DNA of 64,000 bases from Gracilariopsis chorda (Eukaryota; Rhodophyta; Florideophyceae; Gracilariales; Gracilariaceae). A model generated the notes under the pieces. That model had not been told where the DNA came from and made no database searches. It saw nothing but the letters and a program-made list of their open reading frames with translations. The first letter of the stretch is position 1. Each line of letters begins with the position of its first letter. Location of the stretch: positions 140,835 to 204,834 of the forward strand of contig NBIV01000146.1 of the NCBI GenBank assembly GCA_003194525.1. Reading direction: 5' to 3'. Of this stretch, positions 1 to 41,350 are shown one piece after another. The position numbers were made by a program, and so were the translations under genes.

Positions 1-492
1 TCACAAGCTTCAATCTAGATGGCTTGGACCTAAGCATATCATCGCATCAAAACCAAAATGGGTCTATGAAGTTTGAGATTTTTTGAGAAAGAAGAAGGAA
101 GCTGTGCACGCCAAGCGGTTTGTGAAATATCGTCCCGGGTTATAAATCCAAAAGGTTTATCCACAGATATCTCGGTTTGCCGAAAAATATGAGACACTGT
201 ATCAGACCACTGAAACTTTTCATGCCATTAGAGAGAAAAACGGTGTACTGCAGATCTTAGTGCAATTGCAAGGACTACCGGAAGCAGTCAATCAGACTTG
301 ATTCACCCTGACAATGGTACATAAATATCTGCCAGGCACGCCCGAAGACTTTCTACACACTGCTACCAAAAGAGACTTAAAAAAAGGCTATGAAGTTCGT
401 GGCCATGACAACCAAATGAAAAAGCCCCATAAATTGGCTGCAATTCACTGGGCCGTGTTATCAGGCACCGAAATCATTGCCAAAACAGCCTG
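1..492 (+). pseudogene. Ty3/gypsy pol relic: integrase C-terminal end
   Basis: Reading frame 2 from base 2 gives a typical gypsy integrase tail. It has RWLGPKHIIASKPKWVYEV, then a basic VHAKRFVKYRPG segment as seen before a chromo-like module, then about 100 residues with IREKNGVLQILVQLQGLP and PGTPEDFL, ending at a TGA near 492. Three in-frame stops (TGA near 78, TAA near 142, TGA near 298) interrupt it; the one near 298 sits where related proteins usually have Trp. The start lies outside the window. It faces the gag on the other strand, so two unrelated elements meet near 490. Family assignment is by motif only. Confidence 0.6.
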
Positions 493-2803
493 AATTGGTT
501 TTAGAGGCCAAGGTCGGCATAAATTTTGTAATTCTCTTGGCCATCAATAAGACTGTATCCGGGATACAGAGATCACGGGAACGTACCCACGGTCGACGTA
601 AAACAATTAACTGTTCTGACTCTACGTCTGTTTCATCCATCATCCGTGTAAGGATTTTAACAGCTGGGGAGCGAAGCTGTTCCGCCTCCGGCGTCTTCAA
701 CTTTGGCCCAGAAGACGCCCCTCCCGAATGGGAAACTCCGGAGGTTAGTTTTTTCGAAGCAAGTTGCAGTGGAATAGGTAGCTGGACCAATTCGAGGGAT
801 CCCAATCGAACCCCATTCGGAGATACGTCATCTTCAACCTGGTTCCCAAGGTTAGGTGCTCGAACGGCATCGTCTGCTAACACCTGATGCAGGTATGCTT
901 GCAGGAACTTCTGCTGTTCGTATGACGCACCCCTAAAACGAGTATTCTCCTTAGGCGTAAGAGATTCGTACTGTGCGATGATCTTCAACCGGTCCCGCAT
1001 GGGGAATGTGCATTTGGGTGCAAAATGACCTTGTAGGTAGCAGGTACAACATATCCGCTGGGCTGAAGCATCGGATGGTCGATTGTCCACCCGAGGTTGT
1101 GTTGTGTTCTTCCAACCCGGACGGGTGTGACGCGTACCGTTGTTCGCATGAGAGAGCGGCGTTGCGGGAACTGGAACGCGTCTATAACACGCAGGGTCTC
1201 CATGCACGGTCGGAGTCGATGTTGACGGGAGATCCGTAGCTCCCAACGAGTCTGGGCCACTTCCAGCAAAAAGGATGTTGTCGTTATCACCGTTTGTGGT
1301 TACATCTCGCAATAGCGATAATAAGGATGATCCTTCTACTTGAAGAGCTCTCGACGGTCGAGTTCTCGACGGAAGTTGAGCAAGGTAAGTATCTCCCTCG
1401 GCTTGGGCAAGTTCAACCAATTCGAGGTAGGTAGCTCTCTGTTTGTCTTCGCGATGGCGAGCAACCAACGCTCTGGTAGCAGCATCAAGACCATCAACAA
1501 ACATGGTGCAGCGTTCCTGGGAGGAATACACGTTACCAAAACCGAAAACTGCCTCATTCAAACGCGTCAAATAAACCGTTTTGGTCTCTCCAGGCTTCTG
1601 CTTTGTACTGCGCAAAGCGAGTATCGCATCCTGCATAGCATTACCAGTTTCGTAGGACCTGAGAAGGTAATGAACCGCTTCTTGCCAACAGGTTACCCCA
1701 CCCTCCGAGGAAAGGGAAGATCCACGAACGGAATTGAACTGATCTTCAGCCATACCGGTTACAAAGTACAGTAAAGTGACATACGCTTTTCCTTCACTAA
1801 TTCTGTGCATATCAGCCTCCTGAACGAACTTTGTGAGGAAGTCAAGAACCAAGATTGGATATTTACCAGTAAAGCGCTTCCGTAACGTCAGACTCATTCT
1901 GTTGATATCTTCCCTGACTTTTCCGGTTCCTTGTGACGATCGGTCATTATATGAATCGTTAAGGCGAGAATAACAATACGATAGCAGTTTCCTGAAAAGA
2001 GAACTCGTCAAATTCAGCTCTTTAAGCCCAAAGTGGCGCCGTCCCTTCTCTCGAGAGCCAATAACTCCCTGAGTGTGGTACGTGGCCTTAGAACGTGTCG
2101 CACGAGATCTCCTATGAATGATATCGGAAATCGATGAATCCGAAGATTAATCACTGTATTGAATGTCAGAGACTGAAACTGGTAAATCCGAATGGATGTA
2201 AACTTCCTTTTTGGATTTACGCTGACTTCTTTTGTACGAGCGGTGAGTCGAACCAATCGACGCATCTTTTTCTTGAGCACGTGTGTCTACTGCTTCACCC
2301 ATATGGATTGTTTCTTCAAGCATATTCAGACGCCAGTAGATTCGAACTGTCACACCACGAACTTCATCGTTAAGTATCTGATAACACTTCATAAAAGACT
2401 CGCGTGTATCAAGATATTCCAAAATGGAATTCACGTCCTGTCTCAAACGATTTAGATCATAAAAGACGTTCCGAACCGGGGCGTCTTCAACCCTACGCCT
2501 ACGATCATATACACTCTGCAAGAGTTTCAGAGGTGTCGCAGCAGCGATGTCCAGGCGAGACTAGAGCCAAGATAACTCCGAAGCAACATTGCGGACCGTA
2601 ATAACCGCTGACGGTGTCTCAACCACAGGTTGATTAACCATTGCAACTTCTCGCGGACCTGAAGCAACAGATGGTGCTCTCCGAATATCCGGAACGACCC
2701 CATCAGTAGGTGAATTCTTGACGGTAGAACCACGTAAACGCGGTGCAGCAGGCTGAGGAACGCTTGAAGATCCTGCACGAGAACCCTTAGAGGGTGGTGG
2801 CAT
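461..2803 (-). pseudogene. gag: gypsy-1 gag polyprotein (broken)
   Basis: Capsid/nucleocapsid precursor of a minus-strand Ty3/gypsy element. The long open part (2011 to 461, 516 codons) has the Retrotrans_gag-like helical region and a zinc knuckle CCTCYLQGHFAPKC (C-x2-C-x4-H-x4-C). The N-terminal part, from an ATG at 2803 (MPPPSKGSRAG), lies in other frames: 2803-2561, then 2521-2147, then 2280-2014. At least two frameshifts therefore separate start and core. The 2521-2147 piece is charged and helix-rich. The last residues near 461-520 probably read into the neighbouring plus-strand relic. PBS and 5' LTR lie just upstream at 3030-3648. Its organisation resembles the gag of gypsy-2 at 39.3-41.25 kb. 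Confidence 0.75.
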
Positions 2804-3029
2804 TTCTCAATCGGCCAGCCAATCCAATCAGAGTACTGAAGAGCTCAACTACGGGATACCCGAAGAATGGAGCACAAAAGTCAAAACAGATCTTCACCAC
2901 GATCACTCAAGTACCACACGATGGTCCAACTGATCACTAGTTCTTCGACTTCCCCGTGAGTCTTCCTTCTTCGAAGTGAACCAAGTATGGTTATTCCGTT
3001 GAAGTAACCACGCACCGTTCAACCTTTCT
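2804..3029 (-). other. gypsy-1 untranslated leader
   Basis: Stretch between the primer-binding site and the gag ATG. No coding frame stands out; it is the expected position of the 5' leader and packaging region. Confidence 0.45.
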
Positions 3030-3043
3030 AAGTCGGGAGACCA
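3030..3043 (-). promoter_or_regulatory. gypsy-1 primer-binding site
   Basis: On the minus strand the sequence starts TGGTCTCCCGACTT directly after the 5' LTR. TGG complements the CCA tail of a tRNA. The same 12 bases TGGTCTCCCGAC recur next to the LTR of gypsy-2 at 41337-41348, so both families appear to use the same primer tRNA. Confidence 0.65.
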
Positions 3044-3045
3044 CT

Positions 3046-3648
3046 TGCATTGCAGAACTGGAAGTTAGATATCACGCTCAAGGTATCCGGGGCCTTGCTC
3101 CCTGTGGAGGCGGATCTAGTGACAGAGCTCTCTGTATACCTGTAATACGGGCGTAACTCCGTAGTTATTTTCGATTGACCACAGAGGTGGATAAAGAAAG
3201 GTGAACCGGAGCCAGAAAGACGGCAAAACCAGAGACCAGTGTTCCACGCGATGCGGCAGCTTGGAATATACCCGGTGAAAGGTGCCTTCTGATGATGGAG
3301 AAAAACCACCCGGCAGGTCGTGCGGAAAGCGGAAACAGACCCGACGGAGGGTGCACATGCACGGGATATAGTGGACAAACTACCCAAAATAGGGGTAATA
3401 TCAGTACCACACGGTAGATAAATGTCACAAAACAATTATAACACAGAGTATCTGTATGCTTACCGAGCGGTTAAATTGAGCGAACTGAATGCGGTGACCC
3501 TCCGCGAGGAGTATTACCTGGCGCAATGACGTCAAAATCCAGAGCCGGATACCTCCGGTCAAACTGAACAGTTATGAATGACCGAAGTCTCGGGTTAACT
3601 TTATTTAGTGCTCGCCACGACGAGGTCGCGCTCACCTAAGTAGTTACA
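3046..3648 (-). repeat. gypsy-1 5' LTR (about 603 bp)
   Basis: Read on the minus strand it begins TGTAACTACTTAGG and ends next to the primer-binding site. The matching 3' LTR is not in the window; the element is truncated on its left by the relic at 1-492. The inner boundary is set by the PBS and the outer one by the TG start. Confidence 0.55.
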
Positions 3649-3746
3649 CTACCAAATAAATTGTAATCCCCCCACTTATACTAAAGAATATGTTTGTCCG
3701 TCTGTGTGTCTGTGTGTCAGCTAACGCTCACTCATTGGCTGAAAAA

Positions 3747-3901
3747 TCGCCAAGGAGGCTGCCAAGTGGAAACGTGGCATTTTATGCGCTCCAAGAGGAA
3801 TCTTGCACCGCATAATGCGACACGTTTCCACCTGGCGCCTTTTGCACGCCATCTTGCACCGCATAATGCGACACGTTCCCACCTGGCGCCTTTTGCTTGC
3901 C
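3747..3901. repeat. Helitron 5' inverted repeat plus 51-bp tandem duplication
   Basis: A 51-bp unit starting ATCTTGCACCGCATAATGCG occurs twice in tandem (about 3800-3850 and 3851-3901) with about four differences. Upstream, near 3762-3790, lies an inverted copy of its core (CCAAGTGGAAACGTGGCATT against CACGTTTCCACCTGG). The segment can fold back on itself. The ORFs across it on both strands simply follow the repeat and do not look coding. Confidence 0.7.
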
Positions 3902-3970
3902 ACAGTAGCCTAGCCGTTTGACCAAAGTAGCCCACACGTTACACTACAGTAACGGAGCCGTTGCAGTGCA

Positions 3971-4016
3971 GTGCACATGACCGTTTTAATTACTAAATTT
4001 CAACGGTCATGTGCAC
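3971..4016. repeat. 15-bp perfect inverted repeat
   Basis: GTGCACATGACCGTT at 3971-3985 is repeated inverted at 4002-4016 with a 16-nt AT-rich loop. It lies in the non-coding 5' part of the Helitron. Nothing else recognised between 3.65 and 4.70 kb. Confidence 0.75.
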
Positions 4017-4720
4017 CAATCGCATTGCATCCCATACAAAAGCGTGCAATGCACTCGCCCACAGAGCGCTCGCGTTTTCCTTCGCTGTGGTTAACCTACG
4101 GTTTGGGTTGTAGCATTTTGTGCGAGTCAGGACGTCTGAAAAAAGGACGCTGGTGGTACCGGCGGGATCTGTTAAGTTTAACTTTCTCACCAAATAACGC
4201 GTTCATCATCCATATTTAACTGGTTCGGCATCTATTTCTGGGTGGCGTTCACGTGAGGTACGATAGCTCCCCACAAAACGTGCTTTGCGCGGAAGGAGTA
4301 GCCCTTGAAGAGTCTAGAAAGGGGACAACAGAGTACGAATCGAGCAACAGCGGCTCTGTCTGGATCTAAGGAACTGTTAAAGGGAAACGGTCTTCGGACT
4401 AAAGTAGGTCCAGCACAGAGTTGCCTAGCGAATTTGGGATTGTAAATCTCGCAGTCCTTGCAGAATCTCCAGGCATGGCCACCTGTTCACTCTGTACAGG
4501 TCAGTTCCCAATCTAGGCGGTTTCTTTGTGGTCAAGATATTCTATCTTTGCTGCAACGATCCAAAACTTCGGTGCTAGGTGCATGAAAGGGTTTGGCAGC
4601 CCGTAGGACAAATGTTCTTGACCATATCCCTCTTTTTTCTTTTTTCTTTCTTTTCTTTTTTTTGCTTTGCCGGTCTTTGGACAGTTTTTCTTTTGTGTGG
4701 TGTGCTTGAGATATTTTACC

Positions 4721-12867: not shown

Positions 12868-15800
12868 TCAATGTAGATGGGGTAGCAAATTCTTTTGAAC
12901 GATGTATCTATGAAAAGCATCTGTTAACGTCCCATCCTTATCGACAAAGTCTTTTGTAGGTTGCCATTGCGCGTCATGCGTAGTAGAGTTTTCCATGAGG
13001 GTCAAACATTGATATCCTCGGCCGCGACGTCGATGGGCAAGAATACGATCCACCTTGAACAACGGTATAGAAGCAGTAGCATCCACAGGTGCAGGAGAAG
13101 ATCTACAACTCTGTGCCAGATCTTCAGGCTGCTCGACGTGAGGCTTTGTGTGCGATACATGAACAACTGGATAAATTCGAAAGTGACGAGGCAATTTCAG
13201 TCGAACCGCATTTCTTCCAACAAGTTCCTCAATAAGAAACGGGCCATACCTCCTCGCTGAAAGCTTTGAAGACTGTTGTGCATTACTGTACGAATCTTTG
13301 AAAAGCTTATGTGATATCCAGACACGGTCACCTATACCGTAGGAAGGCTTCTTGAAATGAACACTGGCTTCTGCTATTTGCTTCGCCTTAGCAAGTTTGT
13401 GAGCGTATTGAGCGTCTTCCATTACCGCCTTTAGACGCTGACGGAAATCCGATAATGATTCCAGCTGTGTCGGAGTTCCAAGAAGCATCTCCAGTGGACC
13501 TTTTGGTTGCCATCCTAAGTCTACCTCAAAAGGTGAAAGACCAAGATCCTCAGACACTGCTGAATTATAGGCAAACTCAGCACAAGGAAGAAAAAGATCC
13601 CAATCATCCTGCTCGTAATTACAAAAACACCTGATGTAGTTCTCGACCATCCTATTCATCACCTCCGAAGCACCATCAGTTTGCGGATGTTTGGTCGACG
13701 ACATACGTAGTGTCACTCCACAAAGTCGCATAAGCTCCGTCCAGAACTGGGAGGTGAACTTGGGGTCACGGTCGGATATGATATCATCAGGAAGGCCATG
13801 ATGCGGGAAGAGGTGTGTGAAAAACAAATTTGCGACATCGTGGACTTGGTCAGTAGTCTTACAAGCAATGAATCGAACTCTTCGAGACAAACGGTCAACC
13901 CAGGTCGAAATAGCATCAAATCCTCGAGGGGTTTTGGGTAGTTTCACAATAAATTCTGTTGCCAACAAACCCCACCTTCGTGTGGGAATAGGAAGCGCTG
14001 CCGGGTCATTCAACACTTGCCCATGAAAATCTTTCTGTTGTTGACAGACGGAGCACCCATCGCAATACTGACGAACATGCTTCGTCTTGTGCTTCCAATG
14101 AAATTCTCCGAGCCTAGCCAAGGTCTTCGAAAACGCAAAATGGCCAGCTAACTTTGAATCGTGAGCTAGCTCAAGAACCGCTTTTCTTGCATGAGATGGT
14201 ACGCAGAGTTTACCTTTGTAAAACAGTTTCGAATCTCGTGTGGAGAAAGAAGGCAACAATTCCTCAACTCTTCGTAGCTGCTTTCGATCTGTGGGCCCCT
14301 TGCCATTCAAGGCAGCCATAATGGGCCCAAACTGTTGGTCTTGGTCATAGCGGCAAACAACCTGCCCAACATCCAGCAGAGACGGCGTGCTGCACTCCAC
14401 TTGCTGGAGAGACAAACGATCCGGGATACGGGAAAGGGAGTCCCCAAGTACATGAATCTTACCCTGCACAAGATTCATCTCCCTAATATTAAACATGACC
14501 AGCGTATCCAACCAACGCGCTTCACGCCTATTCACGGACTTCTTAGTCAGGAAATTCTTCACAACCTGATTATCCGTCAAAACATCAAATGTAGACCCCT
14601 CAAGATAGCACCGAAAACGTTGGAGCGGGGAAACAAGAGCCAAAAGCTCTCTCTCGTTAGCAGTATAGTTCTGCTCAGTTACCGTGAGCTTCTTAGAAGT
14701 AAAAGCCACCGCTCGATCTCGACCGTCAGAATCCAATTGCGTCAATGTAGCTCCAATGGCCACCTGAGAGGCATTAATGTGAACTCGAAATGGTTTAGAC
14801 CAGTCAGGGGGAACAAGAACCGGAGCGGTCATCAACGCCGACTTCAAGTCCATAAACGCAGCTTGCGCAGACTCATCCCACTGACGAATACCAGCGCGCT
14901 TCTGCAACAGGACATACAAAGGCGCCGCACGAGCTTAAAACCCACGTATAAATCGGCGGAAAAACTGGACCAACCCAAGGAAACTACGTAGCTCTGTCAA
15001 GTTGATAGGTCGAGGCCAGTTCTGAATGACTTCGACTTTATGCGGGTGTACGCGTATGCCATCTCGTCCGACAACCAGACCCAAAAAATCAGCCTCCTCA
15101 AGCATAAACGAGCACTTCTTTGGAGAAGCATAAAGTTTATGCTCTTGCAATCGTTCCAAAACCATGCTAATATGAGCAAGATGTTCCTCCTTGGTGTCAC
15201 TGTATATAAGGATATCGTCGATATATACAACCACGAACCGATCAATATAGTCGTGAAGAACACGGTTCATCAGCGACTGAAAGGTTGCCGGCGCATTGCA
15301 CAACCCCATGGGCATCACCAAGTACTCAAATTGTCCATATTTGGAGTTGAAAGCCGTCTTCTCAACATCGGAAGGACGCAGGCGTATCTGATGGAAACCC
15401 GTCTTGAGGTCTAGCTTTGAGAAAAAACGGGCCTTCCCCAAACGATCGAACATTTCATCACATCGCGGCAAAGGGGCATTATTCCGCTTGGTTATCCGAT
15501 TTAACCCACGATAGTCAACAACACCGCGCAACGCTCGTCCAGGCTCCTTAACAAAAAATAAAGGAGAGCCATAAGGGGACCTGCTTGGTCGTATCTTGCC
15601 GGAGCGCAAGAGCTTGTCAACATATTCGCGGGCAGCAACCAACTCGGCTGGCGACAACTGATACAGTGGACGATGTGGCGGTTGGCTGTCTGGTATAGTA
15701 TCAATAGCATGATCCACATCACGCTTGGGTGGTAGTCCATCGGGCAGCTCCTCCTGAAAGACATCCTCAAATTGATGCAACAAAGCGCAGAGATCCGGAT

Positions 15801-16386
15801 CGTCTTCATCTAACAGTTTTGCCTTCGGGCCCTCAGGCCTAGATGCCGGAGAAAATTGCGACGAAGACACCTGGACAACCCGAAAGACTTCGACGCCCTG
15901 TTTTCCTCGGCGGAGCAGACGACAAAATTTCTTCACTCCAATGTTTGTGACCTGCAAGGCCGAGCGACGCGACACTGGACTAGCTTTAAGAAGATGACCA
16001 CCAACGGCAAGGGTTCGAGCGCGGTAATCGGCCTGTGGATTTTCCTCAGTGTGCCATGGCATGCCGAGTAAAACATCGTAACGACAGTCCGCCACAACCC
16101 AGTTTCCTGTGTAAGAGTAAGACCCGAGTGAAACGGTCCCATTTGCGACCATTTCAGTAGATTTTTCTTGAGCACCTCGCTTAGAATGGCTCACATCAAT
16201 CAACACAGGCGCGAAAGTAAGCAGATGCTCATTAGCGCGAGCAAACGCCCGTGATATCACATTTGTCGAGCACCCATCATCCTTCAGCACTTGAGCAGGA
16301 ATACTATTGAACGTTCCATCCAGGACCAATAATGGAACACACGGAACTTCGGCAGATCCCGAATCACAAAGGTTCTGCAACGACAC
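12868..16386 (-). pseudogene. pol: gypsy-4 pol polyprotein with one in-frame stop
   Basis: The upstream piece (16386-14935, 483 codons) holds a retropepsin with LKDDGCSTNVIS and LLGMPWH, and a reverse transcriptase with KLDLKTGFHQIRL and the YIDD active site. The downstream piece (from 14919, 683 codons) holds RNase H, an HHCC-like YCDGCSVCQQQKDF, integrase core and a C-terminal chromodomain-like segment (FKVDRILAHRRRGRGYQ). The two are one frame: RRFIRGF, a TAA at about 14935, then ARAAPLYVLLQK, where a sense codon is expected. In the integrase the first catalytic Asp of the usual D-F-I-V is Glu (ATEFIVKLP); SDRDPKF and the later Glu (GASEVMNR) are present. Catalysis is therefore doubtful apart from the stop. 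Confidence 0.88.
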
Positions 16387-23736: not shown

Positions 23737-26261
23737 CTAACGCAGTGCCTTTCTTTCGTTTTTGTGTCTCGTTGAAACTTCATTCAAAGTTTTCCTATTG
23801 TTGCTGACCCTCAGAAGGTTATTCCTGTTCGTTATGTCTGTCATAACAACGCGGTTTGTCAAAACTGCAGCTGGCGCCCCACAAGCATTTCCATTCTTGT
23901 CCCTAATACTCCGCACTGGTGCTCGCAGCGGAGCAGATTCGCAAAGAATGCGATGAGAAGAGCGATTCTCTTGTAACGTTTGTTCAATAAGACAAAGACC
24001 TTGTGTTGGACTGGGCTGACGGTTAACAATCGCTTTGATTCTTGAATACACAAAGCGATCGCTTGTGCGCAATGTCATCTGCAAACCCAATCCTATTTTG
24101 CTCCTTGTGCTTTCAGATAAGCATGCTCGATCATCGAGTCTCCGACGTAAGTTTTCGACAAACTGGTACTTCATGGGCCACATTCCCGTGTTAATGAAAC
24201 TTTGCTTGGCGATTTGTGGAGTAATGGCACGAAACCAGGCGACGCCCAGCTTGATCTTGAATGCGATGTTTGGGTTGCTATAAATTCCAGTGTGCAACAG
24301 CATATCTCTCACCTCTCATGTTCTCTCTTTGAATGTCTTATTTATATAAGAATCGCATGGCTGAAGGAAATGGGAGGTATTGGCGAGCAGTTGAACAACA
24401 TTGTTATTTAAAACTTTGTGGTGCAATGCCCCAAAGGGGAAAAACACCGAAAGACGTCCGGGATCTTCCTCTCACGAGGTGAACCCAGTTGGGTAGAGCC
24501 CTCCCAGAGGTGTCACGGCGAAGCCGGTTTGTAAGACCAGGGACACCTGTCGCGACTCGCGCAGGGAGGTGAAGGCGAAGAATCGGTATCCGCGTGAGCG
24601 GGGTGTGATCCTCAGTAGAGGTATGTTTCCACGTAAGTGGGGGTGTGTGAGCGGATGCGCACACGAGGGCCGCGGATAGCGGTAGGTGCTACCCTAAAAA
24701 GAGGAAAGAGGAAGGACGAAGTGGGTCGCGAGAGCGACGAGTAGATACGGCAATGCCGGTGGACAGGACTCCCTATACAGGGCGAAACACCAATATGATT
24801 GGAACAATTAGTACTTCCAATGATGGGTCTCCTTTGGATGTGCAAGGGGGGTGAACTTTCGTACACTACGGTGCTTCCCTCCAAGGAGGAGTTGAGAACA
24901 CGCGGAGGCGGTAAAGCTCAGAGCCAATTCCCCAGGTTGGGGTCCCTTGTTGGGGAAGGTTTACTGGTGCGACGGCAGTGCGCCGTCGCACTAAGTACTA
25001 GCTTCCCAGAAATGGGCGTGAAAATAATAAATCAAATTAACTAAAATACTCCACATTCCGTGGCAACATCCAATACTGTGGCCAACCACCAATTGACCCA
25101 AAACCGTGTCCCACGTGTCCATACCCACCATTGTGGGGCGTAGTTCATATACACACTACACAACCGATAATATCGGGAAAGCGTTCAAGTACCCAGAATC
25201 CCTCCCTGAGGGCGTTGCACTTCACACTTGGCAGTACATGATCCATTCGTCCCCTCTTCGAGAACTGTGTCCATCAAGCATAAGTAGAACTGTGAGATGC
25301 GGCGGAACCGATCTTCGAACGAAACTGTTAAAGTGTTGCACAAGTTTTGGCATTAGGTCCATTGTCATAGAGCCTTTTGCAGTTGCGAAGATTTGCGTCT
25401 TCCAGGGTATACAATCGTCTTCCGTCATCCAATGCAGCTCTACAGGGAGTTTGGTTTTGCTGGTTGCTTCGATTGCCTTCTTCCAACTAGGCATTATTTT
25501 CTTTCCTGCAACCACAAAGAAGGGAGGAGCAATCAACCCTGAAGCTGAAGCAGATATTACAGCCGTGACGTGGGCTCCATCGTCTTTCATATTGTGGCGT
25601 CTTCCTCCCAAGTTTGTCCGTGCACTGGAAAATACTCTTACTCGTTTTCCGTATGCAGCGTTAATTGCGGTTTCCTCTAGATTCCAAATCCGCTTTGGGT
25701 CGTTAAACATGTCTGGATGGCGATTTTAAGGAGCTTAAGATGTTCCACCAAAGTACCAACGTGGTCCATATTCTCTCCCAAGAAATACTTGTGGTTATGG
25801 TTTTCGGATCTGCGAACAGTTACTTCGTGGTTCTTCGCCCGAAAGGAGCGAACGGCTTTCATGCTGGGAAGCTTGTGTTTGTACGTTTTGCGCCCATCAC
25901 TTGCCATTTGTCCCATATACTGCCTTACATGGTTCACATCTAACGCAAATCCCCTTTCAGCTGCATGTTCTCTGCGCCTGACTATTAGTTTTTGCTTACT
26001 TGCATTAAGAATTGGGGGTCGTCCAGGATGATGGAGGACAGAGTTGAGTACCTTTTCAAGCCATTTTTGATTATTTGCTTTCCAAGCGCGTCGAATACGA
26101 TACACAATGGATACGGACAAGCTGCATGTCGTTGCTATGTTGGCAACTTTGTGTTTTTGCTTCAATAGCTCCAGAGCACGATTGTGGGCAGCTTTTGTTT
26201 GCTCTCTTTTGGCTCTGCTTTTCTTTAGGTGGGATGTTTGCTTCCGCATCGAGTCCGGCAT
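23737..26261 (-). pseudogene. pogo-like (DDE_1) transposase, interrupted
   Basis: N-terminal part from 26261 (MPDSMRKQTSHL) has a helix-turn-helix (VANIATTCSLSVSIVYRIRR). One frameshift near 25715 leads into RHPDMFNDPKRIWNLEETA. The first catalytic position, normally D in NLDE, is Glu. The second Asp is in LLMLDGHSSR. After CQV the 809-bp insertion begins; the frame resumes as LNNNVVQLLANTSHFLQPCD, giving the third Asp. One TGA near 24316 (ACA TGA GAG, likely from CGA) precedes the 24312-23737 piece with FINTGMWP and a basic tail. Without the insertion the frame joins exactly (TAC TGC CAA GTT TTA AAT). Confidence 0.88.
24417..25225. mobile_element. 809-bp hairpin-array element nested in pogo
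   Basis: Bounded by ACTT on both sides (24413-24416 and 25226-25229); removal of the element and one ACTT restores the transposase frame. Ends form imperfect inverted repeats (GTGGTGCAATGCCC against GTGAAGTGCAACGCCC). It has no coding frame of note. About 24 small hairpins follow one another, for example CCCC-AAA-GGGG (24429-24439), CCGC-GTGA-GCGG (24590-24601), CCAC-GTAA-GTGG (24629-24640), GTCGC-GAGA-GCGAC (24725-24738), a 10-bp stem GTGCGACGGC-AGTGC-GCCGTCGCAC (24967-24991) and CCCA-GAAA-TGGG (25005-25016). Four loops are GNRA on the plus strand, one on the minus. No known family recognised. Confidence 0.75.
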
Positions 26262-34915: not shown

Positions 34916-36394
34916 TACTCTGTTGAGCCGGTGTGCCAAAACGGCGTATGCGTATCATGAGTAGAATGAAGAAATTTCGCAAATGCGGCTGCCCGTTTCC
35001 GGATGCCACGTGGTGAGCACGACATGGGTGAAGCGCAGGCGACATTTTCTCGATCCAAGAAATTCCAAATGCTGGTATTGACCTGTATTCTGAACAGTCT
35101 GTGTGCTTCCATGGAGCCAGGGCGGAGAATGACTCACTATGTCGGAGGTGTTAAGCGCAAACGTTACGAGTGTTACATCAGGGACTGTTCCGGGTTCGGT
35201 GTCACTTCCGTTTCGGGCGGTTAGAGTTTCGCTTTTGGTGTTGCGTATCTCCTCTCTCAGTCTGCGATGTGTCCTCATGGTGAGCCGTTCTTCGGATGTA
35301 ACGCTGCATGTAGTTGTGTGGAATGTTCCGCTTCGGTTCCCACATGGGCATTTTGAAGCCATACCACTTAACGCGGACCAGTTATTCTCCGTCTTCAGCA
35401 ACATGTTCGATGACCTTCTCGATCACCCATTCCTTTTCTGCAGATATCGGATCAGAAACCTTGGAGTCAAAGTTCTCTGCGTCTGGGAGTGTGTAGGGAT
35501 CAACCAATACCGGTTTTTCTGCGATTGCAGAGCCATTTGATGCAGGTTCGTTCATGGGTTCCGGGAACGACACATCCGTTCAAACTTCATTTTACTCCGA
35601 TTCTTCCGGTGCGGCCGTGTTCGGTGGGATGTTCTCGGAAACTGAAGGTCCAGCTGCTGTCACGCGGTCAATACTAACTATATCGTGTAGTCCATAGATC
35701 AGCTTGTCCCAGTCCTTCTGGTGTTCGGATACGTAGTGCCGCAAGCGGTTGATCAACACCTTGTAAAACCTTTCGACCTGCCCTTTCGTCTGATGATGAT
35801 AGATAGCTGTAAGTACATGCGTAATTCCAAGATCGGCCGCAAGCGACTCGAAATACTTGGCGACCAACTGCGGACCGTTATCGGTAAGCAGGTGGGTAGG
35901 AATCCCGTAGGGGTAAACCCAGTTCTCCAAGAAAGCGATGGTGATGTCGCTCTCCTTCGTATCCGATAGCGGTATGGCTCTCTTGAGCTTTGTGAAGCGG
36001 TCCGTTATCACCAGTATGTACTTCTTTCTGCGTCTGGTTTTCGGCAGTGGGCCAAGGATGTCCATAGTCACGAATTCGAATGGTCCCGATGCCGGGAACA
36101 ACTTCAAGCATTTCTGGTTCTTGAAGTATGTTCTGCGAATGGCTCGACATGGATTGCACCGTGAGACGGTTTCATATACATGCTGTGACACGAAGGGCCA
36201 GTAGAAGCCCTCCCGCAATGTATAATACATCCTGACCGAGCCTGGATGGCCAGCCAGTCGTGGGTAGTGAGAGAGGTAGAGTACTCTATCCTGTAGGGAC
36301 TCCGGAACGACCCTCTGTATGGCTCCGTCATTTGGTGAAATTCTGCAGAGTATTCTGGAGCAATTGTAATCGAGCTGGGACTTCGGATCTCCAA
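34916..36394 (-). pseudogene. pol: gypsy-2 integrase (broken)
   Basis: Main piece 36230-35592: HHCC-type RCNPCRAIRRTYF, core FEFVTMDILGPLP (first Asp), LLTDNGPQLVAKYF (second Asp), TKGQVERFYKVLINRL (Glu), so the D-D-E triad is intact. The frame before it, toward 36394, continues from RNase H with shifts. After 35592 the tail is scattered over several frames (35573-35382, 35404-34955). No chromodomain could be recognised. Confidence 0.82.
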
Positions 36395-36413
36395 CGGACA
36401 GGGCTTTCTCCTT

Positions 36414-37300
36414 TCAAAACGGGTCCTCTGCCTGGGCGGCGATAAACTCTTTGACCGTTATCGGGGGGACGTCAGGCTGTTCCGGTACGGTCGCCATAAC
36501 GTGCAAGGGTTCTCCCGTGCCCGTAGTCATCGGAAAATTCACCAGTACATTCTTGCAGACTTCTTCGTTCACGGTAGCATCTGTGACGACATATTCCAAG
36601 TCGGATTTATCCTCGTCCACGAACAGACATGGTATTTCATCCTCGAGAGGCGTTTCATCGGTTCCGTCTGTTGGCATGCGGGACAGTTCGTTCGTGGGAC
36701 GATGCTTGATCCCGGGACGGTATTGGACTTCGAAATCGAACTCCGCGAGGCGCAAGTGCCATCTGGTGAGTATTCCTGTCGCATCGGTTGTATTTAGGAG
36801 CCAACGTAGGGCTTTGTGATCCGTTCGAACGGTTAAACGTTGTACTTCAAGGTGAGGCCGTAGAAATATCATGCTCCAAACGATGGCCAGGCATTCACAT
36901 TCGGACGTGCTGTAGTTATTCTCCGGTGTGGTTCATGAACGGCTCCAGTACCCAATTGGTCGTAAATCTTTCGTATCTTCTTGTTTTTGGGGCAATGTGC
37001 ACCCGACTTGATGGTTACAGGCATCTGTTTCCGGTATATAGGGCTTACCGGGTTTCGGTAAAGGAAGAATTGGCGGTGAGGTGAGTTTCTCTCTGAGTGT
37101 TCCGAATGCCTCCATATCTTCATCCGAAAACGGTTGCAAGTCCACGGGTTGGTTCTTCTCTAACTTCTGGTTTAGGGGATGGGCAATTAGTGCAAATTTG
37201 GGCTTGAAGCCCCTGTAAACGTTACAGACGCCCAGCAATGCCCGAAGCTCAGTCTGAGTCTTTGGTGGTTTAGCTTTCGTAACAGCGCCACAAGTCCTCG
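36414..37300 (-). pseudogene. pol: gypsy-2 RNase H and RT thumb (broken)
   Basis: 37238-36933 reads LGVCNVYRGFKPKFALIAHP, the RT/RNase H link, and PYIPETDACNHQVGCTLPQK, where the catalytic Asp of TDAS is in TDAC. After a frameshift, 36872-36414 gives the RNase H end VQRLTVRTDHKALRWLLNTT and FDFEVQYRPGIKHRPTNELS. Order and spacing are normal. Confidence 0.82.
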
Positions 37301-37382
37301 ACGCGACTTGATGCTTTCCGGGTCGGATGACATGTCCAAAGTAGTCAATAGCCGATTGGAAAAAGGAGCACTTCTTCAGCTT

Positions 37383-38075
37383 CTACTTTATTGCGCCTTC
37401 TCTGAGGAGGTCAAGTACCTTCTTCAGGTGCTTGTAATGATCCGAAACAGAACTCGAGTATATTATGACATCGTCAAGATACACTATGGCAAACTGCCAA
37501 CGAACCTTATTCGGGATGACGTCTATGGCTCTCTGGAATGTCGCCAGGGCGTTCTCCAAACCAAATGGCATCCTAGTACAGCGGTAAAGTCCCACTTGAG
37601 AGGTGAAAGTCGTCTTGTCCCTGTCGGGTTTGTCGATTTCCACTTGCCAGTATCCCCAGTTGTCATCAAGGGTGGAGAACATCCTTGCGTCCCTTAGAGA
37701 ATCAATACACTCATCCATCCGTGGTATCGGGTAAGAGTCGCGAACCGTGACCGCATTGAGCTTTCTGTAGTCCACGCAGAAGCGCCACAAGTCGTCCTTT
37801 TTCAAGGCTATGACTGCTGGGCTTGCCCATTCTGCCAAAGAATGTTCAATAACTCCTTCCTCGAGCATTTTCGCGACTCGCTCCTTCTCCCATTCACGGG
37901 CCTTCTGACCGGATCGGTAGGGGACCTGGTGGACCGGTTGGGCATCGGGTTCTATGTCAATTTGAGGTTTGCCGGCCGTGATGGTACCTAAATGTCCATC
38001 CCACATGCCAGCGTACTCGGAAAGCATCTGAATGATCTTGTTCCGTTGCGGTTCATACTCTTCACCGGTGTTCAA
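37383..38075 (-). pseudogene. pol: gypsy-2 reverse transcriptase (largely intact frame)
   Basis: 230 codons: PYRSGQKAREWEKERVAKML, SPAVIALKKDDLWRFCVDYR, KLNAVTVRDSYPIPRMDECI, FSTLDDNWGYWQVEID and the active site YLDDVIIYSSS. All core motifs are present, including the Asp pair. The frame breaks only at its C-terminus near 37383, where the thumb continues in another frame. Confidence 0.88.
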
Positions 38076-39330
38076 GGTCGATGTCCAGTCCGCGTCTGGA
38101 TGTTTGTCCTCAAATTTTGTACGCCCTTCTCAGTGTTGTCGACGTTCTCGTCGAAGTGATTATTGGTTGCATCTGTAACGGAGAGGATAGCTGTGGGTGC
38201 TGGATGAGTATTACTGATGAGGGTGTTTTTCGATAAGTGGGTAAGGCGGTCACTCATGTTCGAAACCAGTACGTAGAAAGGCGGATTCGGAAGGACTTCC
38301 ATAACGCCATTCGCCAGCAACTGGAGGTTGCGACGCGTTGTGTGAAGGTGATTCTGTATGTACAGCAGTCCGTGCGTATGTGTTTGAACCAGGACTGCGG
38401 TTTCGGATATAAGAGGGAGTAATATTGAACTAGCGACTCGAAGCTTTGTTGATACCTTACTACGATGGATTCGAGTGGAGATGGTTACACCGTTGCGGGA
38501 ACCATTTCGGGCATCTAAAAGAGCCACTGGCGGTGAGTTGTGGAAGGACATTTTCCGTTACTTGGGGTAGATCAATTTGACATAGCGGTCTATAAATCAA
38601 GTACCCAGTATACAGTCGACTGCCAGGTCGGATGAAACAAGGAACCGAATTCGGACCTTCAAGTTACTGAGGCGGATGTCGAGAGGAACGACACCGAGGA
38701 TGGTAGTAGAGTGACTTGACGCATCCAATATCTTGAGAGTATCGAGCGGTAGTGACTTCGATTCTCATCCGGGCGGTAGTACGCGGGTGTGAATTAGGTT
38801 CGGTGATGCACCTGTATCCAGGCCGCTGGTAATCATTCGTGTCAATCGGGGACTGTGATAGAGAGCTGTCAGGAGCTTATAGTTCTGACTTCGGAACAAG
38901 TACATCGACTTGGAAGTGTCAAAGGTACAATTCAACACTTCGTCATGGAGTTCATCTTCCGTAATGGCGGTCCGTTCGACGGCTGTGTCTCTATTAAGGC
39001 TATCACCTTTGACAGGGCGCGGCGCCTTTACGCGTCCTGCTGAGCGTTTTCCTCCTCTTCATGTGGATGGGCGTGATCCTCTTCCAAAGCAAGAACCAAA
39101 CGACGAGTGTTCCTGTTTGCAGGGGGAGAAATTCCGGGGATCGGAGCTGTGCTGTTAGCGTCACTTCACTGGCTACCAACATTACCGGGGGGACTTCCGT
39201 GGCCTCCAGTAAATGGCATGCAACGGCAGAAATATCCTTTACCAACCCAATGGGAGTAGTTGTGCTAACATTGCTGACGAAATTTGTTCCGGATCTAGGC
39301 CGGCATCCATTCGCAACATGGGCGAGTGGT
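38076..39330 (-). pseudogene. pol: gypsy-2 protease and gag-pol junction (broken)
   Basis: Minus-strand translation near 38.82 kb reads SGLDTGASPNLIHTRVLPP, a retropepsin with intact D-T-G-A, followed by ILGVVPLDIRLSNLKVRIRF and DCILGT. Stops lie after PP and GT. Upstream, near 39.33 kb, a degenerate zinc knuckle ACQPLAHVANGC marks the end of gag. 38551-38072 is the protease-RT linker with one open frame and no motif. Confidence 0.7.
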
Positions 39331-41252
39331 TGACAAGCATAAGCGAGGTGCTGGGTTCCGGTTCGGGTCAAAAGACTGACGTGGGGTTTGGCAGGCCGAG
39401 TATGGTGTCGGAGGCGCCCTATCTTGGGAGCTCATATGAGAAGGTGAAACAGAACCGGTAGTCTGTATCGATGGGTAGGAGACGCTCGGCGAGGGCTTCA
39501 CTGCAAGTGCCTCTCCAGCTGGGTCTTCTACTGTCCTGGACTGCATACTACTTTCCGTTTCGGCAAGGAGGGCTCTGGTGCGAGACTTACGTGCTTCGCG
39601 AGCCATCTCAATCGTGGAGTAAACTTTCTTACCACCACTGTGAGTATCTTCTAAACATTCTGCGAAGAGAACCAACTGCCGCAATCCGATCTTCGAGTGC
39701 GTCGCAGAGTGGTTGCGAACCGAAGCTTGGATGGCTGGCAGTAACCCTTCCACGAACAAAGCCTTAAGCCGAGAGTTGGTGAAAATGTTCCCGCAACGGA
39801 TATTCTTCTTCCATAGACGGTCTGCAAACTCACTTTCCGTTATACCGCAACTCTGCCGATAAGTGGTGATAACTTGGTACGCTTCCGCAATTTCTTCGTC
39901 GGTAGCGTACGTTTCCAGGAGATGGTTTACGGTCTCCAGATAGAATCGTAAGAGCTCATCATCGTCATCCGAATCCATGGCACAAGACTCACCTGAGATG
40001 CTGTTCTTGACGAGTTTCAAATCCGGGCCAGATGTGGAGAACTGAAAGAGCCAAACAGCCGCCCCCTCATGAATGCCGTTCTGGTTGCACGCGGTTTTAA
40101 ACGCGCTCAGAAACTTGAGAACCGTGATCGGGTCATTCCCACTGAACTTCTCGGGAATCTCTAGCGCCATTTGTTTTGCGAACTTCGCGACTGTCCGGGC
40201 AACTCGGGCGTCATACCTTCCGGAACGGTTCATCAAGCGGTAGGTCTTGAAGCTCAAGACCTTGGCGAAATCTCGATTGTTCGGTTTGATTCGCAGGGTA
40301 CGGGAGATATCGGATTCTTCTTCTTCCGTATAGGAAGATTGACTTCTGTCAGAGTCAGAGCATTCTGACTGGGTGTCAGAGTTAGAATGCCCATAACGAG
40401 AATAACGTGACCATCGACGTTTCCTGCTTTGGTTCTTCCTTTTGTTACGCTTCTTTTTCTCCGACTTCGGTATGGCGTTCCACGTGCCTCTTGCGATCTC
40501 CCTATCACGGAGAAGACCATCCGAGTTCGGTACCAGAACTGGATCGACGTTCGACGTGCCCGCCGTGAGCTGCCACTCACGGAAAAGGCCGCCCGCATTG
40601 AATACTTCATCCCTAGAGGGTTCAGGGCGGAGTTTCCTGTTGGGGTGACTGAGTTGCTGCAACACTTCCATTGCAGAGATAAGTTAAGGATGAGTTCCAG
40701 CAAGTAACACACGATGCCTGCGGAGTTGGTTCGCGACTTCCGTCTCCACGGTTTTGATGTTCGCGTCGGTTACAACCAAAGCATTCTGAAGACGGGTGGA
40801 CACGCTTTCCACACTGATGGGGAGGTGCGTTTCTATTCCGGACCGGACTCGCTGTTCGAGGACAGTATCGACCTGAACAGGCACGGGATTGGAGAGTTCC
40901 TCCAACAACCCCTCTCCTAGTGGGGAAGGAGGGAGGCAATATCCGAGGCGGTTGTTGCGTCTAGTAAGGCGGAGAAAGCCGATTCGGGGCCACGCATCTG
41001 CAGAGGGGGTGCATGTCCAGGGTCTCCTCTTCCATGTTACGTGCTCGGTTGTGCTTCTCCGGTGCGGCGGAGCAAACGCTCTGGGTTATCAACGCGTGGT
41101 GCAATCCCTTGGGGCTCACTGCGCGTGATGTTGGAACGTGCGGGCTGCAACGACATTGCAGGAGGATTCGATTCTGGGTGCACATCGCTGGGCGTCGATG
41201 AGAACGATTTTGGACGAGTGAGCTCCTCAAGCCGGAACGTTTTAGAAGTCAT
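39295..41252 (-). pseudogene. gag: gypsy-2 gag polyprotein (broken)
   Basis: Core frame 40671-39295 (458 codons): a Lys/Arg-rich stretch (KSEKKKRNKRKNQSRKRR), a Ser/Asp/Glu-rich stretch, then the capsid-like region EIPEKFSGNDPITVLKFLSA. The N-terminus starts at ATG 41252 (MTSKTFRLEELTRP) in another frame and passes through a helical segment (40908-40684, LISVESVSTRLQNAL-like) before the core. At least two frameshifts. Overall plan resembles gypsy-1 gag. Confidence 0.78.
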
Positions 41253-41335
41253 CGGGAGTGATGCAGCGTTTTAGGCTACTCCTTCTTTTGATACGGTGAA
41301 GACGGATCTCTTGTTCCCACGAAAGGACCGTTTTA

Positions 41336-41348
41336 GGTCGGGAGACCA
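41336..41348 (-). promoter_or_regulatory. gypsy-2 primer-binding site
   Basis: TGGTCTCCCGACC on the minus strand, 2 bases inside the 5' LTR; nearly the same as in gypsy-1. Confidence 0.7.
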
Positions 41349-41350
41349 GA

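Follow-up and report, generated by a model that had tools for sequence, protein, structure and literature searches.

The window analysed in this study, a 64,000-nucleotide stretch of Gracilariopsis chorda DNA, carries a pogo-like transposase gene which is interrupted by an insert (Table 1). When the insert and one copy of its target duplication were taken out, the transposase frame was rejoined across the junction, with a stop occurring later in the host gene, and the insertion into a pogo transposase proposed by a first-pass annotation was thereby borne out. That annotation had given the insert 809 bp, a 4-bp ACTT duplication and TIR-like ends; the insert is indeed there, but it measures 808 bp, its duplication is 5 bp with one difference between the copies, and its ends, TGTGG...CTTCA, are the TG...CA ends of a long terminal repeat (LTR), other copies terminating at the same A.

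Table 1. Features of the interrupted transposase, the insert and its relatives in the window
Feature	Position	Strand	Remarks
Gag of older relative	461..2011	-	49% identity with family A Gag (383 positions); z 2.6, weaker hairpin excess
Primer-binding site GTCGGGAGACCA	3032..3043		beside older relative
Host transposase, downstream part	23737..24312	-	frame crosses emptied site; alone, no Pfam match
Left target duplication AACTT	24412..24416		4/5 bases identical to right copy
Solo LTR, family A (808 bp)	24417..25224	- (gag-pol sense of full-length copies)	identified by copies, ends and flanks
Seven of 26 perfect hairpins	24429..24561
Three hairpins	24590..24640		two with + strand GNRA loops (GTGA, GTAA)
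Five hairpins	24681..24802		one with GAGA loop
Three hairpins	24860..24942
10-bp stem, 5-nt loop	24967..24991		longest in LTR; noted in first-pass annotation, confirmed
Seven hairpins to LTR end	25005..25212		first with + strand GAAA loop
Host pogo-like transposase, DDE part	25222..25710	-	DDE_1, E 5e-4, just below gathering score
Right target duplication CACTT	25225..25229		one difference from left copy
Host transposase, N-terminal part, helix-turn-helix	25677..26261	-	HTH_7, E 1.8e-5
Primer-binding site GTCGGGAGACCA	41337..41348		beside gag-like ORF 39295-40671

The search of the host genome for other copies, which the first-pass annotation had suggested, showed that the sequence is not single copy. 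The 809-bp query gave 41 matches (LTR matches: 40 scored among 1780 first-look candidates), of which 40, the window copy included, spanned the query at 98-100% identity and the remaining one was 89% identical. A 23-base pattern from the LTR start, allowing up to three mismatches, occurred 798 + 784 = 1,582 times in the genome, while a control pattern occurred 0 times. Perfect 5-bp duplications flank another solo LTR, L021 (CAATG), and the full-length insertions L009/L010 (ACAGA) and L011/L012 (CCGTG), as expected of the mobile, multi-copy sequence with target duplications that had been predicted. The flanks were read for 23 distinct copies (30 rows), among which 13 joined a primer-site side, 8 a polypurine side and 2, the window copy and L021, were solo. 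The primer-binding site GTCGGGAGACCA lies on one side of the LTR, where the flank of the copies reads GTC(G/A)GGAGACCACTT, and on the other side lies a run of C, the complement of a polypurine tract which is a purine run on the sense strand; a tRNA matching the primer site was looked for in the window, which holds no tRNA. Paired direct LTR copies about 10.7 kb apart (10.7 kb for the pair on C28, 10.6 kb for that on C101) flank gag-pol. Thus the copies, the primer-site and polypurine flanks, the duplications and the rejoined transposase frame together establish that 24417-25224 is a solo LTR of a red-algal Ty3/gypsy chromovirus, and we infer that it became solo by recombination between both LTRs of a full-length insertion. 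The class of element is already known and the insert is not a new kind of element.

MITEs are short non-coding inserts with duplications and imperfect inverted ends. The present insert differs from them in having no single terminal foldback and in its ends, which are LTR ends, and a MITE was rejected on the LTR flanks of the copies. The first-pass annotation had favoured an undescribed element, a structured RNA packaged as a mobile unit of its own, and an independent non-coding element of this sort would agree with the multiple copies, the target duplications, the strong hairpins and the want of an internal gene. But the flank counts given above, the matching duplications at the outer ends of the two paired copies checked and the gag and pol encoded on the minus strand of full-length copies all speak against it, and we consider it hardly credible.

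On the sense strand, which is the minus strand of the copies, the order is gag, RT-RNase H, integrase and chromodomain, as in gypsy elements, and the Pfam domains RVT_1, RNase H, Integrase_H2C2, rve and Chromo were found between the paired LTRs. Membership of the chromoviruses is assigned on the predicted chromodomain downstream of integrase (PF00385, 41.5 bits against a cut-off of 25.1). Gag is 724 aa long with a CCHC knuckle, read by eye, and PF03732, which we take to be Retrotrans_gag, was precomputed in 14 of 33 Gag homologues. An RT query against genome_contigs and viral_contigs found no relatives outside the host; a protein with an RT 70% identical (P0008) is filed under a bacterial MAG (Sphaerochaetaceae) and is probably contamination. 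At one further locus (L028, C119:222800-224700) the 5' LTRs of family A, to which the window LTR belongs, and of family B lie head to head about 30 bp apart, and L070 and L073, which hold family C-like elements, have a family A-like LTR (95%) immediately upstream of the antisense ORF.

A 595-aa ORF runs antisense, on the plus strand, between pol and the 3' LTR and starts 57 nt from the LTR end. It has five relatives at 39-59% identity, including the hypothetical protein BWQ96_03215 of Gracilariopsis chorda (P0002; 100% identical to G000 over residues 1-491), this one protein pointing to that species as the most likely host, and a relative from Gracilaria domingensis is 47% identical. The antisense protein matched no Pfam family at its cut-off, and a five-sequence AlphaFold model of P0002 (mean pLDDT 32) was set aside. 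Genome searches with this ORF gave 1447-1742 candidates at first look, of which 68-98 were scored; an antisense ORF family of 600-670 aa is common to several retrotransposon families (L009:927-2714 (+), with relatives in L049-L078), identity being 45% between A and C, 60% between D and E and about 34% across. The long antisense ORF is conserved in the 10.7-kb copies examined; no match to it was found in the 9-kb subfamily B copies L029/L030 and L033/L034, and the B copy L031/L032 has it with an in-frame stop. The element shares with Ty3/gypsy chromoviruses its TG...CA LTRs, 5-bp duplications, primer site, polypurine tract, CCHC gag and RT-RNase H-integrase-chromodomain order, but differs in this long antisense ORF and in being tiled with hairpins of a family-specific pattern. 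Antisense ORFs between pol and the 3' LTR are also described for the Retand elements of plants (PMC11963269), which are non-chromoviruses, most of them with a TRP28 domain, whereas here a chromodomain is present and the antisense protein has no Pfam family at cut-off.

The window LTR holds 26 non-overlapping perfect hairpins (stem of at least 4 bp, loop 3-5). Counting overlaps and loops of 3-8, we found 46 perfect 4-bp stem windows, where 120 dinucleotide shuffles had 19.2 ± 5.3 and none was as extreme, and so the string of hairpins seen at first pass is indeed beyond chance. The four plus-strand GNRA loops listed at first pass do occur, against 0.58 expected and in none of 120 dinucleotide shuffles to that extent, but GNRA tetraloops as a feature of the element were rejected, no such feature appearing outside the LTR; over the LTR and six internal segments they made up 8 of 162 tetraloops on the plus strand and 10 of 162 on the minus strand. 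A known RNA family was also rejected, since the two Rfam matches (E 4.6 and 6.5) are far below gathering scores, and the clear Rfam hit which the first-pass annotation had named as a refutation did not turn up. The excess sits in the perfect stems, because a minimum-energy fold of limited span contains a number of hairpin loops that is hardly out of the ordinary (29 against 25.9, with 8 of 120 shuffles as extreme). Local folding gave z of -3.4 to -3.8 for the two family A LTRs, -1.9 and -3.4 for B, and between -2.1 and 0.7 for C, D, E and L069; in these folds the C' piece included 14 bases of flank, and E and L069 had arbitrarily cut outer ends.

The array is not confined to the LTR but spans LTR, gag, pol and antisense ORF. 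One LTR and the 9.9-kb internal part of one copy together contain 337 non-overlapping perfect hairpins, roughly one per 30 nt; the internal halves gave 151 and 158 hairpins against 53.9 and 48.9 expected, and one LTR 28 against 7.8. For the coding parts, synonymous codons were shuffled within each gene (stems of at least 4 bp, loops 3-8; 100 shuffles). In family A, gag had 125 stems against 54.0, RT 65 against 29.5, integrase 92 against 48.7, the chromodomain ORF 42 against 19.7 and the antisense ORF 85 against 45.1, while in family B gag had 111 against 54.2 and the antisense ORF 86 against 43.9, in each case with 0 of 100 shuffles as extreme. The z values of these seven ORFs were 5.8 to 9.7, and the ORF hairpin excess was 1.3-2.3x over codon-preserving and 2.0-4.3x over dinucleotide shuffles. 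At 30 further loci found by antisense-ORF similarity (30 fetched of 68 matches, the longest ATG frame being used for each) z was 2.0 to 9.7 over codon shuffles. The first-pass annotation was thus right about the oddity of the array and underestimated it, as it covers about 10 kb, mostly coding, in several families.

In the controls we noticed nothing comparable. For two host HSP70 genes, taken from 11 matches, z was 0.7 with loops 3-8 and -0.1 and 0.5 with loops 3-5; eight other window ORFs gave -1.8 to 1.2, except the Gag of the older relative; unrelated elements lacked the excess, and four control stretches stood at 1.0-1.1 overall against dinucleotide shuffles. A gypsy element at window 12868-16386, whose two long ORFs encode RT, RNase H and integrase and which has no hairpin excess, is a good natural control. 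Window 2200-4200 is hairpin-rich (39 against 19.9 expected) and is probably the LTR and leader of the older relative with gag at 461-2011. Degraded gypsy-like ORFs occupy window 35592-41350; hairpins are at background at 36300-40700 (42 against 42.1), and the gag-like ORF at 39295-40671 has z 1.2, yet 12 stems of at least 5 bp against 6.0. Chance or base composition would have in its favour that GC-rich sequence folds readily, and the folding of family A LTRs is only moderately unusual, 4 of 80 window-tile strands having z of -3.4 or lower. Against the dinucleotide and codon-preserving controls, the copies, the families and the constraint test given below, we regard this explanation as next to negligible.

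The hairpins are narrowly defined in size. In eight ORFs pooled, the excess peaked at loops of 3, 4 and 5 (2.69, 2.79 and 2.53x), being 1.56 and 1.64x at loops 1 and 2, 1.65x at 6 and about 1 from 7 on (1.1 at 8), while direct repeats ranged between 0.6 and 1.45 without a peak at 3-5. By stem length it was 1.06 at 3 bp, 2.26 at 4 and 3.46 at 5, with 16 against 8.8 at 6; in families C and E the excess lies at 4-bp stems and is near expectation at 5 bp or more. One-wobble stems were not enriched in the eight ORFs (plus strand 74 against 74.8, minus strand 50 against 64.2), and no clear wobble asymmetry indicated strand polarity. Regular spacing was not clear either, the coefficients of variation of centre spacing being 0.40, 0.55 and 0.52 against 0.53, 0.63 and 0.56 at random, and 11, 12 and 36 of 200 random placements being as even. 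In local folds (span 30) set against 30 codon shuffles per ORF, gag, RT and INT were on their sense strands 20-24% more stable than expected with RNA energies and 40-47% with DNA energies, and the two antisense ORFs tested 11% (RNA) and 22-24% (DNA), while two control gypsy ORFs fell between -5% and +5%. For both strands of five ORFs the RNA folding z was -2.0 to -6.9 over codon-preserving shuffles, against 1.2 to -1.1 in controls.

The ends of the stems differ by family. In A and B hairpins an outer 5'CC..GG3' occurred 252 times against 16.6 expected. The outer pair is C-G (5' to 3') in 76-85% of family A hairpins and the second pair in 65-74% (75% and 72% in B); the reversed outer pair G..C, which is equally paired, makes up 7-10% in A, and in controls the outer C-G stands at 23-26% (window) and 33-45% (two HSP70 loci). 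In five A ORFs pooled, the fully paired CC-NN-loop(3-5)-NN-GG was found 165 times against 23.6. With a plus-strand wobble CC..GG occurred 29 times against 18.4, with a minus-strand wobble 14 against 13.9, and with other single mismatches 62 against 58.8. Even where neither inner pair matched there were 149 against 112.6, so the clamp signal is in part independent of pairing. D (9.4-9.7x), E (6.4-7.6x) and L069 (9.6x) favour a 4+4 unit closed by G-C, 4+3 hairpins standing at 1.8-1.9x, 0.9-1.0x and 1.4x, respectively, with E and L069 again taken with arbitrary outer ends; family C favours 4+3 and 4+4 hairpins whose outer pair is C-G. These forms are preferences, as D has CC..GG at 4.1x and A the G-C-closed 4+4 at 2.4x. 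The patterns follow descent, since A-C and D-E are the closer pairs by antisense-ORF identity. Sequence homology among the A/B, C and D LTRs was rejected (41-49% identity in forced alignment), although about 165 bp at the A and C LTR starts align at 64-65%. Hairpin pairs shared between families numbered 8 against 7.3 expected for A-E, 6 against 5.5 for C-E, 20 against 5.7 for A-D and 20 against 3.9 for A-C. Thus individual hairpins turn over between distant families and their positions are hardly shared, while the density is kept, and the pattern appears to be a trait of the family and not of the host. Stability as the sole cause does not readily fit, because outer C..G is preferred over G..C and E favours 4+4 but not 4+3.

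We then compared changes in stems with changes elsewhere, calling a difference fixed when present in at least 90% of each group and private when in one copy. The main test took stems from either lineage and covered 44 LTR copies, but the internal parts were represented by no more than two A copies and three B copies, and the antisense ORF by one B copy, whose 'fixed' sites are thus A-B differences. Fixed A-B differences fell in 20 of 3141 stem sites and 99 of 6942 others, while private mutations numbered 198 in stem sites and 390 in others (odds ratio 0.40, P 2e-4). For comparison, inverted repeats with loops of 9-26, taken as controls, gave 12 of 1116 against 87 of 5826 fixed, and 66 against 324 private (odds ratio 0.68, P 0.28), and without the antisense ORF the fixed counts of the main test were 9 of 2631 stem sites against 68 of 5664. 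A-B differences as such were also scarcer in stems, at 40 of 2336 stem sites against 230 of 5698 others in one direction and 28 of 2234 against 240 of 5785 in the opposite one, long-loop control repeats, pooled, giving 35 of 987 and 25 of 938. One-sided tests gave stronger figures, 1 of 242 against 40 of 566 for the LTR and 1 of 2190 against 35 of 5301 for the internal part; with the two most divergent LTR blocks left out, the fixed counts of the LTR test were 0 of 216 and 15 of 495 (P 0.011). But as these tests define stems in one lineage they favour a reading of selection, and the two-lineage version was relied on. At fourfold sites the A-B comparison of stems with other sites gave 13 of 459 against 49 of 904, with P 0.04, and the reverse direction gave 5 of 430 against 54 of 921, with P 2e-5. 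Stems compared with control repeats alone did not differ significantly at these sites (P 0.17 and 0.06), and loops were the least changed class in the first direction, at 2 of 163. The C-C' pair agreed in one direction, with 18 of 403 against 296 of 2340, and gave 50 of 548 against 264 of 2195 in the other (P 0.06, not significant); D-E behaved in the same way (P 4e-4 and 0.06).

At the level of copies the LTR was equally variable at paired (107 of 432) and unpaired (101 of 376) sites, which is expected of dead copies and is not itself evidence of structure. Among the changed pair types of the 44 LTR copies, single changes broke pairing on both strands in 48 cases and kept it on the minus strand only in 27, on the plus strand only in 25 and on both in 8; of five double changes 3 kept pairing, 1 kept it on the minus strand only and 1 broke it. 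Covariation in these copies gave no support to the predicted fold, and compensatory changes among copies, whose lack the first-pass annotation had counted as a refutation, are largely absent. Stems are thus readily lost in copies, but tend to be retained in the source lineage. The stems look selected because fixed differences between lineages avoid them and the private mutations of copies do not, and on balance purifying selection on stems is favoured.

The hairpins could also be of mutational origin, if the element's RT folds nascent cDNA back and copies it, turning near-palindromes into perfect ones. This would act in the replicating lineage only, and it suits the apparently strict Watson-Crick pairing, the array in coding and non-coding parts and in both gene orientations, and a loop preference which tracks the DNA hairpin energies of the stem tested. 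But templated repair should, by our reasoning, alter the two arms together about half of the time, and Watson-Crick double changes numbered 0 and 1 for A-B and 3 and 2 for C-C'; the more distant D-E pair, with 14 of 122 and 15 of 86 changed pairs, figures which carry no computed chance expectation, leaves some room. It predicts neither the CC..GG clamp nor the patterns of each family, and we think this origin improbable.

A bulk structure without any reader, in which dense hairpins stabilize the single-stranded genome or hide it from host silencing or nucleases, much as with the ordered RNA structure known at genome scale from some RNA viruses, would account for the greater folding stability of element ORFs over codon shuffles, set against the near-zero values of the controls, and for a density retained while positions turn over. 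It does not account for clamps and loop lengths that are family-specific within one host, nor for the lack of enrichment of one-wobble stems, although RNA energies rate the one tested about like a 4-bp stem. Moreover, RNA energies make loops of 6 and 8 no less stable than loops of 4 on the stem tested, yet they are enriched only 1.65 and 1.1x. We hold this explanation to be rather unlikely, if a more serious one than the mutational origin.

Taken as a whole, we consider this account fairly probable: the window insert is the solo LTR of an element with a family-specific, selectively kept hairpin array, whose hairpins may serve as weak binding sites for an element-encoded protein. Pairing seems to be needed, because single mismatches are not enriched; and since the hairpins need pairing, are limited in size, prefer certain ends and are a family trait, they point to a partner sensitive to shape and ends and inherited with the element. 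In LTR elements Gag must bind the genome, which makes it the best candidate reader, with the antisense protein second. Dispersed sites bound by a protein of the element itself, probably Gag with its zinc knuckle, are the likeliest mechanism, which we put forward tentatively; the gene of the reader is a guess, two 9-kb B copies being without the antisense ORF and the third B copy carrying the in-frame stop. Each hairpin would be a weak site on the single-stranded genome, RNA or first-strand cDNA, and binding would coat and compact the genome and pick it over host RNA. The protein of each family would read its own hairpin form, which is the reason proposed for the difference of form between families in one host. 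Wobble-free stems and short loops fit DNA energies better, and the slight plus-strand wobble excess in the CC..GG class would fit first-strand cDNA or antisense RNA; neither is conclusive.

Dispersed packaging signals, in which many small RNA sites are proposed as coat-protein contacts, are described for HBV (PMC7612645), MS2 (PMC4751978) and parechovirus (PMC5431903), the recognised feature reported for HBV being the loop motif -RGAG-. In the array the loops are free, while stem ends and loop lengths are constrained; its hairpins are candidate sites known from sequence, and they are denser, as a judgement rather than a measurement. Pervasive local structure and folding energy beyond codon-preserving shuffles are found here likewise when set beside genome-scale ordered RNA structure, but the stems here appear strictly Watson-Crick and are limited in size, with clamps varying by family. 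Such ordered structure is known from some RNA viruses, where pervasive local structure is kept via synonymous choice. In the literature searched, whose coverage left out most subscription papers, no report of such a hairpin array was found.

How an element chooses its own RNA over host or rival RNA is an old question, to which the usual answer for retrotransposon proteins is one leader signal; the present array may carry hundreds of marks. It is conceivable, and offered with less confidence than the reading of the locus itself, that in this red-algal retrotransposon clade the whole genome, coding parts included, is written as 11-14-nt hairpins whose stem ends and loop lengths are a family tag read by the element's own protein. 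Such a code, if it exists, might mark self nucleic acid along its full length rather than via one packaging signal, a suggestion we make with the same caution. Families A/B, C and D/E are natural variants within one host, which makes the idea directly testable by binding and probing. Such an array would also restrict change at many synonymous sites, and this matters for dating and codon-usage studies of such elements.
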